Below, piece after piece: positions 1,263 through 7,465 of a DNA stretch of 25,121 nucleotides. Source of the DNA: Bordetella parapertussis. Its GTDB lineage: Bacteria > Pseudomonadota > Gammaproteobacteria > Burkholderiales > SG8-41. A model generated the notes under the pieces. The model was not told the origin of the DNA. It saw only the letters and a list, made by a program, of their open reading frames with translations, and ran no database searches. The DNA lies in NCBI GenBank assembly GCA_945863085.1, contig CAMBCD010000003.1, positions 1 through 25,121 on the forward strand. The letters run 5' to 3'. How positions within the stretch are numbered: the first letter of the stretch is position 1; every line of letters begins with the position of its first letter. Both the position numbers and the translations under genes were made by a program.

Positions 1263-1274
1263 GAGGGGGGAATA

Positions 1275-1312
1275 AACACGCCTGCCGGCGGGAGTCGGCA
1301 GGCGTGTTTTCA
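1275..1312 (+). terminator. Rho-independent terminator of fumC
   Basis: A perfect 13-bp stem (1275-1287 with 1296-1308, AACACGCCTGCCG with its complement) encloses an 8-nt loop and runs into TTTT at 1307-1310. It sits about 60 bp after the fumC stop and separates fumC from the minus-strand cassette array. The symmetry and the A residues on the left mean it could also stop transcripts arriving from the cassettes. Confidence 0.85.
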
Positions 1313-1347: not shown

Positions 1348-1410
1348 ATTTAACCGGTATTAACGGGTGGGCAGACATGGCCGTCGCTTACGGACCGGTG
1401 GTTATGTGCC
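1348..1410 (-). other. attC site of cassette D (degenerate)
   Basis: On the minus strand R'' is GGCACATAAC (1410-1401), the exact inverse of the start of cassette D. The best R' is GTTAAAT (1354-1348), which fits GTTRRRY; an alternative is GTTAATA slightly upstream. CCGGT and ACCGG can pair as a short inner arm. The inner arms are weaker than in the other three sites, so the 3' boundary is uncertain. Confidence 0.55.
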
Positions 1411-1411
1411 A

Positions 1412-1705
1412 TTACAGCTCATATTTCGAGATGTCGAGCGACCCGTGAAAGACTCCGAGGATGTCGATGTTTCCATCGTCTTTTACGAGATAAGCAATGC
1501 GGTAATGCCCGTATAGCAGGACTCGGATGTTTCGGGAGGAGGCAACGTATCGGTGTCCAATCTCGGGGAATCTGGCGAGGACTTGCGCCTTCTCGTAGAT
1601 TTCCTGAACAGTGCGGGAGGCTGCTTGTGGATTGTCGGCTGCGATGTACTCGAAGATGTCTTCGAGGCAGCGCCGTGCTTCATCGGTCCATGCTATTGCT
1701 GCCAT
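1412..1705 (-). CDS. RelE/ParE-family toxin
   Basis: Toxin half of a type II toxin-antitoxin pair carried on cassette D. The 97-aa product matches the RelE/ParE fold size. It begins with a typical WTDEARRCLEDIFEYIAADNP helix region and continues through EIYEKAQVLARFPEIGHRY. It ends in the strand-rich RVLLYGHYRIAYLVKDDGNIDILGVFHGS characteristic of the family. Family members either cleave ribosome-bound mRNA (RelE) or poison gyrase (ParE); the sequence does not settle which. The ATG start overlaps the end of the antitoxin gene by 13 bp, so translation is probably coupled. Its TAA lies one base before the attC R'' site, so the cassette has almost no non-coding 3' sequence. Confidence 0.9.
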   Translation of the reverse strand: MAAIAWTDEARRCLEDIFEYIAADNPQAASRTVQEIYEKAQVLARFPEIGHRYVASSRNIRVLLYGHYRIAYLVKDDGNIDILGVFHGSLDISKYEL

Positions 1706-1878
1706 GCGCGGATGCGGTGCGCCATCTGCTCGTTTGAGATGGTGCGCTTCGCGTCCGAGTCGGCGAGTCCGCGCTCGACCATGACGTGAAAAGCAAGTTC
1801 TCGCACAATTTCCTCGCGCGAACTGTCTTCGGGCTGCCCCTGGATCAGGCGGGTAAGTTCTTCCTTGACTGTGGACAT
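1693..1878 (-). CDS. Antitoxin of the cassette-borne RelE/ParE pair
   Basis: A 61-aa acidic protein starting MSTVKEELTRLIQGQPED, upstream of and overlapping the toxin gene, the usual antitoxin-first order. It resembles the short antitoxins with an N-terminal leucine-rich helix and a C-terminal SxEExxxRIxxW-like helix; here the C-terminus reads ISNEQMAHRIRAWQQ. I chose the internal ATG at 1878 rather than the longer open frame (to 1914) because GGAGG lies about 8 nt upstream. The leader begins inside cassette D, 64 bp after the recombination point, so the pair could carry its own promoter. The exact antitoxin family was not identified, and no clear DNA-binding motif was recognised by eye. Confidence 0.82.
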   Translation of the reverse strand: MSTVKEELTRLIQGQPEDSSREEIVRELAFHVMVERGLADSDAKRTISNEQMAHRIRAWQQ

Positions 1879-1936
1879 GGTTTGAGCCTCCAAGTTATCG
1901 CTATCTTGCCACAATCATTTGCCACCGACGAATGGC

Positions 1937-2023
1937 ACATAACGTCGTGCTCTGCGGCGGGCCGCTACGGACTTTAATAGTGGCGCGATGCTCCCCGCCG
2001 TCCGCAGCAGCTAAATGTTAGGC
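1937..2023 (-). other. attC site of cassette C
   Basis: On the minus strand R'' is GCCTAAC (2023-2017) and R' is GTTATGT (1943-1937). Inside, GCTGCTGCGGACGGCGGG can pair with CCCGCCGCAGAGCACGAC, leaving unpaired bases of the kind that define the attC bottom-strand hairpin. R'' is the inverse of the GTTAGGC at which cassette C begins (3158). R' deviates from GTTRRRY at one position (T in place of the second R). Confidence 0.82.
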
Positions 2024-2059
2024 CAGAACCTGTCGCACCGCCCCCGAATTGAACGCGCA

Positions 2060-3130
2060 TTAGTGGTTAAGCCGGTAGAGCCGTTCGGCATTCTCATAGC
2101 CGATACGGCGTGCCAATTCCGCGGGCCGGTGGGACAGTAGCCGACGAATGCCGCGTCGCTGTATCTCAGAGCGCTGCTCAAATATGCGGGGGGCTTCCGC
2201 ACCGGTATATGTCTTGGCAACAACAAAACTGTCGCTGCCGATGACGAACCGGTCTGGGAAGTCGCGCAGCACCGCAATCCAATCGTCGTTGATTGCGCCC
2301 TTCGGATGCACCATCGACCCAGGGAAGGGAGCGGTAGGTCGAATGCTGAGCGCGAGATTGGAATGCCGGTCAAGCAACTCCCGAACCAACCTGGGAGTGA
2401 AATAGCCTACTGGATCTGCCCCGGCGTGCGCCCACAGGATCTTCGTCTTTCGATTATGCGCGAGCAGGCGCTCGAAGCCCTCGAGATTCGCCTTCAGCAC
2501 CGCGGGGTTTCGCGGCGACGATAGGTTGGTGGGTTTCTCGACGTCGGCGGGCACTGGATCGAAATGAAGATCGATCGGCACGTCGTGCTGTGCCGCAATA
2601 TCTGCAAGAAGTAGAAGCAGGGGATGATCGGCAGGCACCGATTCGTAACCGTGGCTTGGTGACAACGACACGTGATGCGCGGTGATTTCGCCGAAGCCCT
2701 TGGCCCCGCTCGCGATGATGCGTTGGGCCGTTTCTTCAAAGCTGCGGCGAACCCCCTCAGACACTTCCGGTGATTTTCCCGCCTCCTGTAACATGGGATT
2801 CAGCGACCCGCCGCCGCCGAACATCACGATACGTGGGCCGTACTTCTTTACGATGGCGGCGAGACTCTCTATATCGAAATTCTCGCGTGGACGCGGCGGC
2901 GACATGACAATGATCGTCCGAATACGTTCAGCGTCCATTATCTGTAGCGCCGTGCCTGCGGCCTCATCAAAGCCCTCAAGATTCCCCTTGTCGGCGATGA
3001 GATGAAAGTGGACGTCGATCCAATCCCCCTGAGATTGTGCGCGCGCGTCGAATGCTAGCAAGTTAGCGCCAAGAAGCACGACGATCGCCGCAAATGTGAC
3101 GAGGCAAAGCGCTCCTGACCGAAATCTCAC
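2060..3130 (-). CDS. Secreted amidohydrolase (amidohydrolase_2-like), cassette C
   Basis: A predicted exported metal-dependent hydrolase of the TIM-barrel amidohydrolase superfamily; its substrate is unknown. The 356-aa protein starts with a signal peptide (RFRSG followed by a hydrophobic stretch, with probable cleavage after ARA before QSQGD). Candidate metal and catalytic residues are visible in family order: DVHFHL (H41, H43), GEIT (E148), LHFD (H189), WAHAG (H235) and GSDSF (D300). I prefer the GTG at 3130 because GGAGGA lies 7 nt upstream; an in-frame GTG at 3145 is the alternative. The gene fills one integron cassette and its stop is 37 bp before R''. Amidohydrolases act on lactones, amides and decarboxylation substrates, so no specific reaction is claimed. 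Confidence 0.85.
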   Translation of the reverse strand: MRFRSGALCLVTFAAIVVLLGANLLAFDARAQSQGDWIDVHFHLIADKGNLEGFDEAAGTALQIMDAERIRTIIVMSPPRPRENFDIESLAAIVKKYGPRIVMFGGGGSLNPMLQEAGKSPEVSEGVRRSFEETAQRIIASGAKGFGEITAHHVSLSPSHGYESVPADHPLLLLLADIAAQHDVPIDLHFDPVPADVEKPTNLSSPRNPAVLKANLEGFERLLAHNRKTKILWAHAGADPVGYFTPRLVRELLDRHSNLALSIRPTAPFPGSMVHPKGAINDDWIAVLRDFPDRFVIGSDSFVVAKTYTGAEAPRIFEQRSEIQRRGIRRLLSHRPAELARRIGYENAERLYRLNH

Positions 3131-3151
3131 GCTGCATTCCTCCACTGTAGA

Positions 3152-3246
3152 GCCTAACGTTCACGCCCACCGGCGTGCCGCCTCAATCCATCAATTCGCG
3201 ATGACGCTTGCCTCGCGTCCGCGTGGGGCGTGGGGTTAGAGGGCGC
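3152..3246 (-). other. attC site of cassette B
   Basis: On the minus strand R'' is GCGCCCTCTAAC (3246-3235) and R' is GTTAGGC (3158-3152), a perfect GTTRRRY. Inner arms CACGCCCCAC and GTGGGCGTG pair with an extra base on one side. R'' is the exact inverse of the first 12-13 nt of cassette B. The cassette B reading frame runs right through the site. Confidence 0.85.
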
Positions 3247-3564
3247 ATCATCGAAGTACTGCACACCGCGTTTTTGTAAGGTGCGCTTGATAGGAGATGC
3301 ATGGGCGATTACGTGACGCCAAAGCAGCACGAACCACGCCAAGGACCCGACAACGGAAATGACGAAAACTTGGAAAGTCCCCATGACTTGGCCAAACCAA
3401 TTGGTCCAAGCCCAAGGATCTCCAGTAACCCAGCCCTTATACACGAAGCCCCAAGCCGATAGCAGGGCAACAAATCCTACGAACAGGCCACCTTTCGCCC
3501 ACGGGCCGAATCGTCGCCCGGGTGTCCAAACGGACGGCCTCACTCGGATTGCATATCTGCTCAA
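3154..3564 (-). CDS. Two-helix membrane protein, cassette B
   Basis: I do not recognise a family. The 136-aa product has a basic N-terminus, then hydrophobic segments at about residues 25-43 and 64-83 separated by a tryptophan-rich loop (GDPWAWTNWFGQ), then a polar tail. The start is a TTG at 3564, with GAGGG about 8 nt upstream; that Shine-Dalgarno-like sequence is part of the GTTAGAGGG core site, so the recombination junction itself would supply it. Residues from about 107 onwards are encoded by the attC site, and the stop TAG lies inside the GTTAGGC core where cassette C begins. The C-terminus is therefore a by-product of cassette structure and may change if the next cassette is exchanged. 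Confidence 0.65.
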   Translation of the reverse strand: MSRYAIRVRPSVWTPGRRFGPWAKGGLFVGFVALLSAWGFVYKGWVTGDPWAWTNWFGQVMGTFQVFVISVVGSLAWFVLLWRHVIAHASPIKRTLQKRGVQYFDDAPSNPTPHADARQASSRIDGLRRHAGGRER

Positions 3565-3573
3565 TGCTGCGCC

Positions 3574-3648
3574 CTCTAACGTCCGCGGTGAAATGCGCGT
3601 GCGAGCGACGCTCGCGGAGCGTCATTTTCGACCGCGTGGTTAGAGACC
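3574..3648 (-). other. attC site of cassette A
   Basis: On the minus strand R'' is GGTCTCTAAC (3648-3639) and R' is GTTAGAG (3580-3574). The fold is very clear: CTCTAAC with GTTAGAG, then CGCGGTGAAATG with CATTTTCGACCGCG leaving extrahelical bases, and an apical perfect stem GCGAGCG-A-CGCTCGC. It is the cleanest of the four attC sites. Confidence 0.9.
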
Positions 3649-4002
3649 ATTCTGTCCTTTGCCGCTTGTGCGAATAGCGTTAACCAGCCCTAGGAAGCAG
3701 GCAAAAAAGATAATCGCCGCGATAAACGCCAACTCGCTCACAAACTTTGTCGATGCATTCACCAGCTCAATTAAACTGAAAATTGTTTGATCTCGGTAGT
3801 TGATCCAGCTTCGTATAACATGCCCCTTCACCGGCAGGTCAGCAACGGCCTCGAGAGTCTTCACTTCGCTCTCGGGGAACGCGCGGGGCATGAATCTCGC
3901 GCGATCCTCGTCGGACCAGTTACTCGGCCACCAAAGACCAATGCCGCCAAATACCAGCGCGAAGACGAGATTCAAAACCGCAATTGCCTTCAAAGATCCC
4001 AT
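3640..4002 (-). CDS. Two-helix membrane protein, cassette A
   Basis: No family recognised. The 120-aa product has one hydrophobic segment at about residues 5-25, a polar middle region (about 26-87, with DEDRARFMPRAFPESEVKTLE), and a second strongly hydrophobic segment at about 88-108 followed by a short basic tail. The topology suggests a small inner-membrane protein with a periplasmic or cytoplasmic loop. It is the first cassette after the attI-like site. Its ATG lies only 9 bases after the recombination point and its stop codon TAA is part of the attC R'' sequence, so the cassette has almost no non-coding DNA. Expression probably depends on a promoter upstream of attI. Confidence 0.7.
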   Translation of the reverse strand: MGSLKAIAVLNLVFALVFGGIGLWWPSNWSDEDRARFMPRAFPESEVKTLEAVADLPVKGHVIRSWINYRDQTIFSLIELVNASTKFVSELAFIAAIIFFACFLGLVNAIRTSGKGQNGL

Positions 4003-4005
4003 GGT

Positions 4006-4065
4006 CTCTAACTAGTTTTATACGGCAAAAACGTCGGATAACATTCCGGCGCGATGGATAACATC
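4006..4065 (-). other. attI-like primary integration site
   Basis: On the minus strand two ATGTTATCC direct repeats (4064-4056 and 4044-4036) are 20 bp apart. They are followed by TAAAAC and then the GTTAGAG core (4012-4006) where cassette A begins. The second repeat starts 32 nt before the recombination G. In class 1 attI1, recalled from memory, two ATGTTA-containing repeats lie 19 bp apart, the second 34 nt before the junction, with TAAAACAAA before GTTAGGC. The agreement in sequence and spacing is close, and no attC palindrome is present here. Confidence 0.65.
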
Positions 4066-4074
4066 CCAGAGAAA

Positions 4075-4102
4075 ATCATAATTTATTCAATTAAAACAAT
4101 AA
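4075..4102 (-). promoter_or_regulatory. Candidate cassette promoter (Pc-like)
   Basis: AT-rich tract directly upstream of the attI-like site. A good -10 (TATGAT, 4080-4075) is preceded at 16 bp by a poor -35 (TTATTG, 4102-4097). The position, just outside attI and pointing into the array, is where an integron promoter is expected. The -35 match is weak, so this is only a candidate. Confidence 0.3.
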
Positions 4103-4234
4103 TTTATGTTCATTTATGGTTTTTCAGACACCGATAAAATCGGAACGAAAAGCGACACCCTGTGATTTACCCAAGAGAGAATAGCGGAAATCAATTTTGT
4201 TGTTGCAGTCATTGTTTAACACGACCGCTGGCCC

Positions 4235-4744
4235 ATGCTCAAACTGAACCCCGAAAGCCCATTGCGCACACTGATGGAAACCTTCCCGCATGCGGGAAAG
4301 CTGGAGTGGATCGGCCTGCGCCCCGCACGGCGTGCGCCGCTGCAATCCTTCAATCATGTCGAGGTGCTGGCCGATCACGGTCTCGTCGGTGACCACAAGG
4401 CGCAACGCACCGGCGGCAAGCGCCAGGTCACGCTGATCCAGCGTGAACATCTGGATGCACTTGCTTCAATGCTCGGTCGCGCTGCCGTCGATCCCGCGCT
4501 GTTACGCCGTAACCTGGTCGTGTCCGGCATCAACTTGCTGGCGCTGCGCGACACGCAGTTTGAGATCGGCGGTGTGGTGTTCGAAGGCTCGGGCCTGTGC
4601 GAACCCTGTTCGCGCATGGAGGAGGTGCTGGGGACCGGTGGTTACAACGCGATGCGTGGTCACGGCGGCATCATTGCCCGTGTGCTCAGCGGCGGCGTGA
4701 TCCGTGTCGGTGAGGCGGTGGCGTACAAAAATATCCCCGCCTGA
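4235..4744 (+). CDS. MOSC domain-containing protein
   Basis: A stand-alone MOSC (molybdenum cofactor sulfurase C-terminal) domain protein of 169 aa. The domain is thought to carry or transfer sulfur to metal centres, and members such as YiiM-like proteins act on N-hydroxylated substrates via Moco. Seen: the opening GKLEWIGLRPARRAP, DHGLVGDHK, KRQVTLIQREHL, RRNLVVSGINL, and the GLCEPCSRME segment with the conserved cysteine (C125, with C122 nearby). The ATG at 4235 has no strong Shine-Dalgarno sequence. It is the first ordinary chromosomal gene after the cassette array and stands where an integron integrase gene would normally be. Its last codons overlap the terminator of the opposing gene. 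Confidence 0.9.
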   Translation: MLKLNPESPLRTLMETFPHAGKLEWIGLRPARRAPLQSFNHVEVLADHGLVGDHKAQRTGGKRQVTLIQREHLDALASMLGRAAVDPALLRRNLVVSGINLLALRDTQFEIGGVVFEGSGLCEPCSRMEEVLGTGGYNAMRGHGGIIARVLSGGVIRVGEAVAYKNIPA

Positions 4745-6304: not shown

Positions 6305-7465
6305 ATGGCGAATGCTTCCGCATCCTCGAAACCGACCCTCGGCCTGATCATGACCGGCGGCGGCGCGCGCGCCGCCTACCAGGTCGGCGTGATCCGTGCA
6401 TTGCACGAAATCCTGCCCAAGGACGTGCGCAACCCCTTTCCCATCATCTGCGGCACTTCCGCGGGCGCGATCAACGCGGCGGTGCTGGCCACCGATGCCG
6501 GCAATTTCCATCGCGGCGCGCGCCGGTTGATGACGGTCTGGAAAAATTTTCATGTCGAACAGGTCTATCGCGCCGACGCCTGGGGCGCTCTGGGCAACAG
6601 CGCGCGCTGGCTGATGACCGCGTTGTCCGGCGGCAGCCTCGACGGCCCGATCTCGCTGCTCGACAATTCACCGCTGGCCGACCTGCTCGGGCGCCACGTC
6701 GATTTCCCGGCGATCGGGCGCAATATCAACGCCGGCCACCTGCGGGCGTTTGCGGTCACCTGTTCCGGCTATTCCTCGGGCCAGTCGGTGACGTTTTACG
6801 AAGGCAATGCGAAGTTGGAGAACTGGGAGCGCGCGCGCCGCGTCGGCGTCGCGATGCCCATCGGCCTGCCGCACCTGATGGCGTCGAGCGCGCTGCCTTT
6901 CATTTTTCCGCCGGTGCTGATCAACCGCGAATATTTCGGCGACGGTTCGATGCGGCAGATTGCGCCGGTCAGTCCCGCGCTGCACCTCGGCGCCGACCGC
7001 CTGCTGGTGATCGGCGTCGGCCGCCAGGCCAAACAATCCGCGGTGCGCCAGCCGTCGAACGGTTATCCGTCGCTGGCACAGATTGCCGGCCATGCGCTGG
7101 ACAGCATTTTCCTTGACGCGCTGGAGGTTGATCTCGAGCGCCTGCAGCGCATCAACCGAACGCTGAGCATCATTCCGGCGGCAACGCTGGCCCAAAACGG
7201 TTATCCGCTGCGCGCCGTTGAATTCCGCGTGATGACGCCCAGCGTGCCGCTGAGCCAGATTGCGGCACAGTACGCGCATGACCTGCCGCGGGTGATCCGC
7301 GGACTGCTGCAGACCGTCGGCGCGATGAAACGCACCGGCTCCAACCTGGTGTCGTACCTGCTGTTCGAAAAAGCCTATTGCCGTGCGCTGATCCAGCTCG
7401 GTTATCGCGACACGATGGCGCAGCAGGACGATTTGATTGCCTTCCTCGGTTACGGCCCGCAGTAA
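6305..7465 (+). CDS. Patatin-like phospholipase
   Basis: A 386-aa Ser-Asp dyad lipid acyl hydrolase. Seen: glycine-rich oxyanion loop TGGGARAAYQVG (residues 17-28), nucleophile elbow GTSAG (S52) and catalytic aspartate in GDGSMRQ (D213). A C-terminal extension of about 160 residues includes SIIPAATLAQNGYPLRAVEF. No signal peptide is visible, so the protein is probably cytosolic or peripheral on the inner membrane. The stop TAA shares a base with the ATG of the following methyltransferase (TAATG), so the two genes are coupled. The substrate cannot be told from the sequence. Confidence 0.92.
   Translation: MANASASSKPTLGLIMTGGGARAAYQVGVIRALHEILPKDVRNPFPIICGTSAGAINAAVLATDAGNFHRGARRLMTVWKNFHVEQVYRADAWGALGNSARWLMTALSGGSLDGPISLLDNSPLADLLGRHVDFPAIGRNINAGHLRAFAVTCSGYSSGQSVTFYEGNAKLENWERARRVGVAMPIGLPHLMASSALPFIFPPVLINREYFGDGSMRQIAPVSPALHLGADRLLVIGVGRQAKQSAVRQPSNGYPSLAQIAGHALDSIFLDALEVDLERLQRINRTLSIIPAATLAQNGYPLRAVEFRVMTPSVPLSQIAAQYAHDLPRVIRGLLQTVGAMKRTGSNLVSYLLFEKAYCRALIQLGYRDTMAQQDDLIAFLGYGPQ

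Follow-up and report, generated by a model that had tools for sequence, protein, structure and literature searches.

An integrase-less cassette array between fumC and a MOSC gene is headed by its own attI and may belong to a distributed integron

Between fumC and a gene for a MOSC-domain protein, a 25,121-nucleotide stretch of contig CAMBCD010000003.1 (assembly GCA_945863085.1, deposited as Bordetella parapertussis; hereafter the window) carries four gene cassettes on the minus strand (1364-4011). This array is headed by an attI site of the kind that adjoins the integron integrase gene (intI) in related genomes, and its full extent with attI counted is 1358-4068. From sequence comparison, it is probably an integrase-less integron with its own attI, filled in trans by an integrase (IntI) encoded elsewhere in the genome. 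We also lean, with more reserve, to the broader proposal of a distributed integron, in which one SOS-type IntI would serve attI platforms at fixed addresses, each of them copied, truncated in intI and kept by selection, and together forming many parallel capture ports.

The attI consists of two ATGTTATCC direct repeats about 20 bp apart followed by GTATAAAACTAG^TTAGAG, where the caret marks the crossover point. This architecture, with two direct repeats and then an xxTAAAAC-GTTAG simple site, resembles that of class 1 attI1. The window attI is 93-98% identical to the attI directly adjoining intI in five relatives (G001, G003, G004, G011 and G016; G-numbers denote relatives' genomes and L-numbers extracted loci), with intI cut by the contig end in G003 and G016. 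Judged by this alignment, the window site and the intI-linked attI of relatives are the same element. Unrelated cassettes lie beyond its G^TTRRRY point, as befits a predicted IntI recombination site. R1, a sequence-only attI model built from 23 copies including that of the window, assigns it 76.3 bits, a score which, like those of all the training copies, is not independent. Concerning the integrase itself, the IntI protein of L083 exceeds the cut-offs of two integron integrase profiles (470 bits for TIGR02249, 523 bits for NF011946); TIGR02249 is above its cut-off in 11 of the 20 genomes searched, while below the cut-off other matches occur in all 14 controls.

No such gene accompanies the array. 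With an IntI query, the best tblastn match in the window reached only E 0.84, and the 80 loci retrieved by a MOSC-based scan gave no match at E <= 1e-5. The window does not contain a complete integron, in which intI adjoins attI, and it does contain what defines a CALIN (cluster of attC sites lacking integron integrase), namely at least two attC sites, two of them found by covariance model and a third by alignment, with no intI nearby. R2, a covariance model derived from 19 attCs of relatives and none from the window, detects attC1 and attC2 with high significance (Table 1) and misses the other two; on the plus strand of the window it matches attC1 only, at E 0.022. Missed by the model, attC3 aligns end to end with the attC of an intI-bearing array (L111:560-646) at a score of 99, the best of 500 shuffles reaching 49. 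Plain bottom-strand folding is striking for attC1 alone, the region of attC4 having a z of -0.7. The start of each cassette recurs inverted in its own attC: a repeat search returned 12 nt at 100% (3639-3650 / 4001-4012), 20 nt at 90% (3235-3254 / 3561-3580) and 13 nt at 100% (1401-1413 / 1931-1943), and the pair GTTAGGC/GCCTAAC (7 nt, 3152-3158 / 2017-2023) was found by reading. The cassette boundaries, as read from the sequence, are all of the form G^TT (4012/4011, 3580/3579, 3158/3157, 1943/1942 and 1364). Since a strict attC scanner still produced 44 matches (score >= 17) when run on 1.59 Mb of background strands, R2 was used for counts. Rfam scans returned zero matches and hence were of no help for attC.

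These results agree with the initial annotation of the window, which had described four same-strand cassettes with attC-like palindromes and inverted start matches (7-13 nt), had placed no integrase beside them, and had proposed a CALIN-type array between fumC and MOSC. The significant attCs for which it had suggested a covariance search were indeed found with R2, and the betaproteobacterial affinity that it had assumed is supported by the names of the relatives' records. Its interpretation stood as regards the CALIN, the relatives and the proteins, and fell short in missing the array's own attI (4006-4068), the intI linkage of this site, its orphan copies and the common platform.

The attI of the window is one of many. 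Over 74 genomes of the family of G003, which comprises environmental bacteria, R1 returned 71 matches in 22 genomes, 16 of which hold 2-10 copies. Seven of the 71 copies are adjoined by intI and 64 have none beside them (hereafter orphan copies); matches near E 1e-3 may represent other attI lineages, and at E <= 1e-9 the intI-linked fraction is 6/42. In all seven intI-linked copies the distance between attI and the end of the match to the intI profile is constant, at 114-115 bp. An order-wide sample gave R1 matches (E <= 1e-7) in 7/399 genomes, of which six belong to the family set as well. When up to 2.5 kb upstream of 45 fetched copies was searched by tblastn with IntI, 40 had no match even at E <= 1 and five matched, with under 1.5 kb of upstream sequence available for eight of the 45. 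On the downstream side, a same-strand attC (R2) lies within 2 kb of 28 of the 38 orphan copies that have at least 300 bp downstream, versus 1.3% of 15,250 random windows, and of 25/35 once the R2 training loci are removed; at >= 26 bits the counts are 23/38 and 20/35, versus 0.4% of random windows. The partial R1 match of L164 (26 bits) was left out of this comparison, and L085, the intI-linked copy of G004, is absent from the sources of the R1 locus scan. By these model predictions, most testable orphan copies head attC-bounded cassettes, several of them at addresses common to different genomes. An intI with its attI coexists with further orphan copies in six of the 22 attI-bearing genomes (G001, G003, G004, G016, G063 and G064), the R1 matches in G063 being weaker. 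The likeness between orphan and intI-linked attIs is 0.861 within a genome and 0.835 between genomes (3/120 permutations, observed included), and the own genome's site is strictly the best match for 5 of 11 orphans, a small effect suggesting that orphan attIs are slightly closer to the intI-linked site of their own genome.

Other attI lineages occur in the same 74 genomes. A second (type II, the lineage detected by R1 being type I) gives 26 matches in 15 genomes, some of them partial and covering under half of the query; five lie beside intI or an intI fragment, and type II is also found in the fumC-MOSC gap of L007. A third (type III) gives seven matches in five genomes. In G010 and G003, the type-III attIs adjoining intI agree at 75/75 bases (L081:1325-1399, L084:1325-1399), as after a recent transfer of the whole platform. 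In L177, two orphan attIs of the same direction lie 4.9 kb apart (1491-1551 and 6387-6442), each with a downstream attC. In G011 (L109), the intI beside the type-I attI is interrupted by in-frame stops, including one near codon 12, and this type-I integrase looks broken.

Both fumC and MOSC are present in 17 of the loci from the MOSC-based scan, with a gap of variable content that measures 0.8-4.1 kb in 15 of them and 6 and 221 bp in the other two. An attI is found in this gap in seven other assemblies (L001, L003, L004, L008, L014, L015 and L017). In L001, L003, L008, L014 and L015, alignment with the window holds on the MOSC side up to the variable part, past which the sequences differ completely. 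Across six genomes compared at this site, mean identity is 87% in attI, 70% and 64% in two 90-bp upstream blocks, and 31% beyond the crossover. The address is recognizable from common flanks in the window, L152, L156, L161 and L166, and also in L147, L162 and L154, each with MOSC on the same stretch. Among relatives with cassettes in the gap, several have attCs, and not the repeat-free cassette boundaries that would speak against an integron array. Going by these alignments, the fumC-MOSC gap is a platform common to related genomes. In more distant relatives it holds a plus-strand gene that by eye is short-chain dehydrogenase-like (L009, L018, L022), or is nearly empty (L020, L023), and this is likely the state before the platform.

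Common flanks also define other addresses (L149/L151/L163; L159/L165; L148/L157/L171), with further flank-like matches for L150/L155, L168/L185, L170/L183 and L172/L177/L179. The address of intI is common to L103, L106, L109 and L114, and L182 has its flank with no intI within the available 659 bp. Orthologous sites realign only past arrays of unequal length; one address, for instance, has arrays of 1664, 469 and 1042 bp. When 20 orphan copies are aligned on the core, each position from -12 to +4, the last four being TTAG, is conserved in 17-20 of the 20, and divergence follows. A separate regularity lies outside the usual core, at +9 past the crossover, where a C (TTRRRYNNC) is present in 18/20 first cassettes of orphan copies. 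One cassette is present both in the intI array of G003 and at an orphan address of G016 (L103/L163, 82% over 601 bp). The only cassette common to the window and L003 is the distal ParE cassette, which is what would be expected if newer cassettes enter beside attI. The mechanism that we envisage is that IntI from the intI-linked locus would act on every orphan attI, recombining it between G and TT with the attC of an arriving cassette; new cassettes would thus come to lie beside attI and the oldest would remain distal, as with the ParE cassette of these two arrays.

Remnants of intI provide a clue to how orphan platforms may have arisen. In the window, a short stretch on the far side of attI from the cassettes matches codons ~4-12 of intI, at nearly the distance from attI that these codons have in the intact gene (Table 1). 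Class-b copies are those having a common AT-rich upstream block, and codons ~4-12 of intI are matched at 9 of 13 of them, with scores reached by at most 2.2% of 500 shuffles. These matches lie 64-71 bp from attI, the distance in the intact gene being 70. The match is unconvincing at four class-b copies (L156, L154, L157, L148), and six other copies have none. The simplest reading of this pattern, and the one that we infer, is that one class of orphan platforms would derive from a single intI-attI module: once intI had been cut after ~12 codons, this module would have been copied to several chromosomal addresses.

A number of observations weigh against a distributed integron. The action of IntI in trans on orphan attIs, and with it recombination there, is something that we infer from sequence, and the linkage of the element to intI is known from relatives' genomes and not from the window's own. 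R2 predicts no attC at 10/38 orphan copies. An intI above the cut-off is present in 12 of the 22 attI genomes and in 26 of the 52 without type-I attI, so that the two are not associated; intI lies next to a type-I attI in only 7/22, and 10/22 lack intI at E <= 1e-30, including G065, which has ten copies and in which intI was not found. At the address termed site C (G014 and G017, intI found in neither), conservation is lower in attI (79.7%) than in its flank (89.1%). In addition, the closest relatives of the window are draft metagenome-assembled genomes (MAGs), and the completeness of the searched genomes is not given.

Part of this evidence fits a reading in which orphan attI arrays are fossil platforms, that is, remnants left by an ancient loss of intI, which received their cassettes earlier and capture none now. 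We regard it as unlikely, but it deserves some weight: besides the ten genomes in which intI was not found and the relaxation of attI at site C, which it expects, it would accommodate the intI 5' stubs of the nine class-b copies and the degenerate attC4, and it is in line with the proposal, in the accessible text of PMC9024848, that CALINs are degraded integrons. Yet at fumC-MOSC attI is better conserved than its own flank, the DNA adjoining it differs in all six genomes compared, multiple copies also occur in the six genomes that have kept the intI locus, and nothing of intI is found past the stub. A distributed integron with attI platforms that would be filled in trans is the reading that we favor.

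It is very improbable that the array is an ordinary CALIN which arose, with no attI involved, when cassettes entered secondary (attG) sites or an array was rearranged. CALINs are common (PMC9024848) and have been described at conserved loci in Xanthomonas (PMC12444791), in the parts of these papers available; but a 60-bp element of the intI-linked attI kind precedes the arrays, which a short secondary-site consensus would not yield. A CALIN devoid of attI is already contradicted by the attI alignment. An artefact of metagenome assembly or binning, finally, is hardly credible: the closest relatives are MAGs and G003 holds three intI/attI types, but the fumC-MOSC attI occurs in those seven other assemblies, from several projects judging by titles, on contigs of up to 550 kb.

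Table 1. Features in and around the cassette array (window coordinates)
Feature	Position	Strand	Remarks
fumC	end at 1217		array-distal neighbour
Terminator-like hairpin 3' of fumC	1274-1309	+	14-nt perfect inverted repeat, 8-nt loop; array-distal border
attC4	1358-1407	-	short, degenerate terminal site; core sites ACATAAC / GTTAATA alone; missed by R2
Cassette 4 (toxin-antitoxin)	1364-1942	-	579 bp; G^TT boundaries
Cassette 4, ParE/RelE-type toxin	1412-1705	-	97 aa; PF05016, E 7.7e-18
Cassette 4, antitoxin-like open reading frame (ORF)	1693-1878	-	61 aa from ATG; named antitoxin by its place before parE
attC3	1937-2023	-	missed by R2; rests on global alignment with attC L111:560-646; fold z -0.3
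Cassette 3	1943-3157	-	1215 bp; G^TT boundaries
Cassette 3 ORF	2060-3145	-	361 aa; Amidohydro_2 (PF04909), E 7.5e-7; signal-peptide-like N-terminus by eye
attC2	3152-3241	-	R2 50.4 bits, E 4.2e-11; fold z only -1.7
Cassette 2 ORF	3154-3564	-	136 aa, TTG start; no homologue found
Cassette 2	3158-3579	-	422 bp; G^TT boundaries
attC1	3574-3645	-	R2 46.3 bits, E 4.8e-10; fold z -4.4
Cassette 1	3580-4011	-	432 bp; G^TT boundaries
Cassette 1 ORF	3640-4002	-	120 aa; hydrophobic stretches by eye; no known family
attI platform	4006-4068	-	63 bases before cassette 1; crossover between G 4012 and T 4011
intI stub, codons about 4-12	4134-4160	+	local alignment score 29, reached by 0.4% of 500 shuffles
MOSC-domain gene	4235-4744	+	PF03473, E 1.3e-17; divergent from array, 166 bp past attI

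The expectation that the cassettes would encode undescribed proteins held for two of them. The proteins of cassettes 1 and 2 match no Pfam or NCBIfam family, and neither has an independent homologue among 5.8 billion proteins, where the sole match to the former is an entry for that very protein beginning at a later start and the latter has none. The same search gave 1787 matches to the protein of cassette 3, its own entry counted, among 7998 candidates scored. A homologue of the cassette 3 protein with 69% identity lies directly after an attC in G038 (L189), and homologues in L188, L190 and L191 have no visible cassette context. For the antitoxin-like ORF, no family reached its cut-off. Cassette 4 is also the distal cassette of L003, with parE 89% and the antitoxin 99% identical. 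A sigma-70 scan of 3950-4260 for a cassette promoter returned a single weak match, on the opposite strand and no better than in shuffles, and no promoter is claimed.

Some further observations concern the fumC-MOSC gap and its records. In L011 (6030-6197), the fumC 3' end (residues 316-371, 87%) is present once more in the interval from fumC to the cassettes, a pattern reminiscent of the insertion of another element at the end of fumC. The gap of L002 contains a REP-type transposase-like ORF, identified by eye (6618-7148), and L005 and L012 contain this or remnants of it. The MAGs L008, L016 and L019 are titled Bordetella parapertussis and group with environmental MAGs by MOSC identity; these titles look wrong.

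If a distributed integron is real, those CALINs that possess a maintained attI cognate to a distant intI would be live capture sites and not decay products, at least for part of the class. The natural series of attI sites, with two lineages and dozens of copies, could show what IntI needs in attI, and the many addresses might allow simultaneous expression of more cassettes in first position. Among known systems, the likeness to a sedentary chromosomal integron lies in intI, attI, attC and cassettes running away from attI, and also in a LexA-like box over the intI start. The difference is that here the attI platforms outnumber intI and are mostly apart from it.

With CALINs, of which 2961 are known versus 2760 complete integrons (accessible text of PMC9024848), the arrays share at least two attCs with cassettes and no intI nearby. 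As the same text has it, the class as catalogued by IntegronFinder 2.0 is defined by attC alone and the program detects no attI outside class 1; here a conserved attI is present in many copies and matches the intI-linked attI of relatives. In Xanthomonas, according to the accessible parts of PMC12444791, intI is located at ilvD and CALINs occupy seven other chromosomal loci, being mobilisable in trans by a functional IntI; no attI is mentioned for them in those parts, whereas the present arrays have attI, some with an intI stub. The Delta-attI cassettes of mobile integrons (PMC12901181, accessible text) likewise bear attI sequence away from intI; in those, a partial attI lies inside a cassette, whereas the present attI precedes the first cassette as a chromosomal platform. 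Dispersed attI copies without an integrase were not found described in the accessible portions of the literature searched, which included PMC12901181, PMC9024848, PMC12444791, PMC8946536 and PMC9668308 and had most subscription papers outside its scope. The array between fumC and MOSC is a CALIN by definition, and it differs from others in a maintained, multi-copy attI cognate to an intI located elsewhere.

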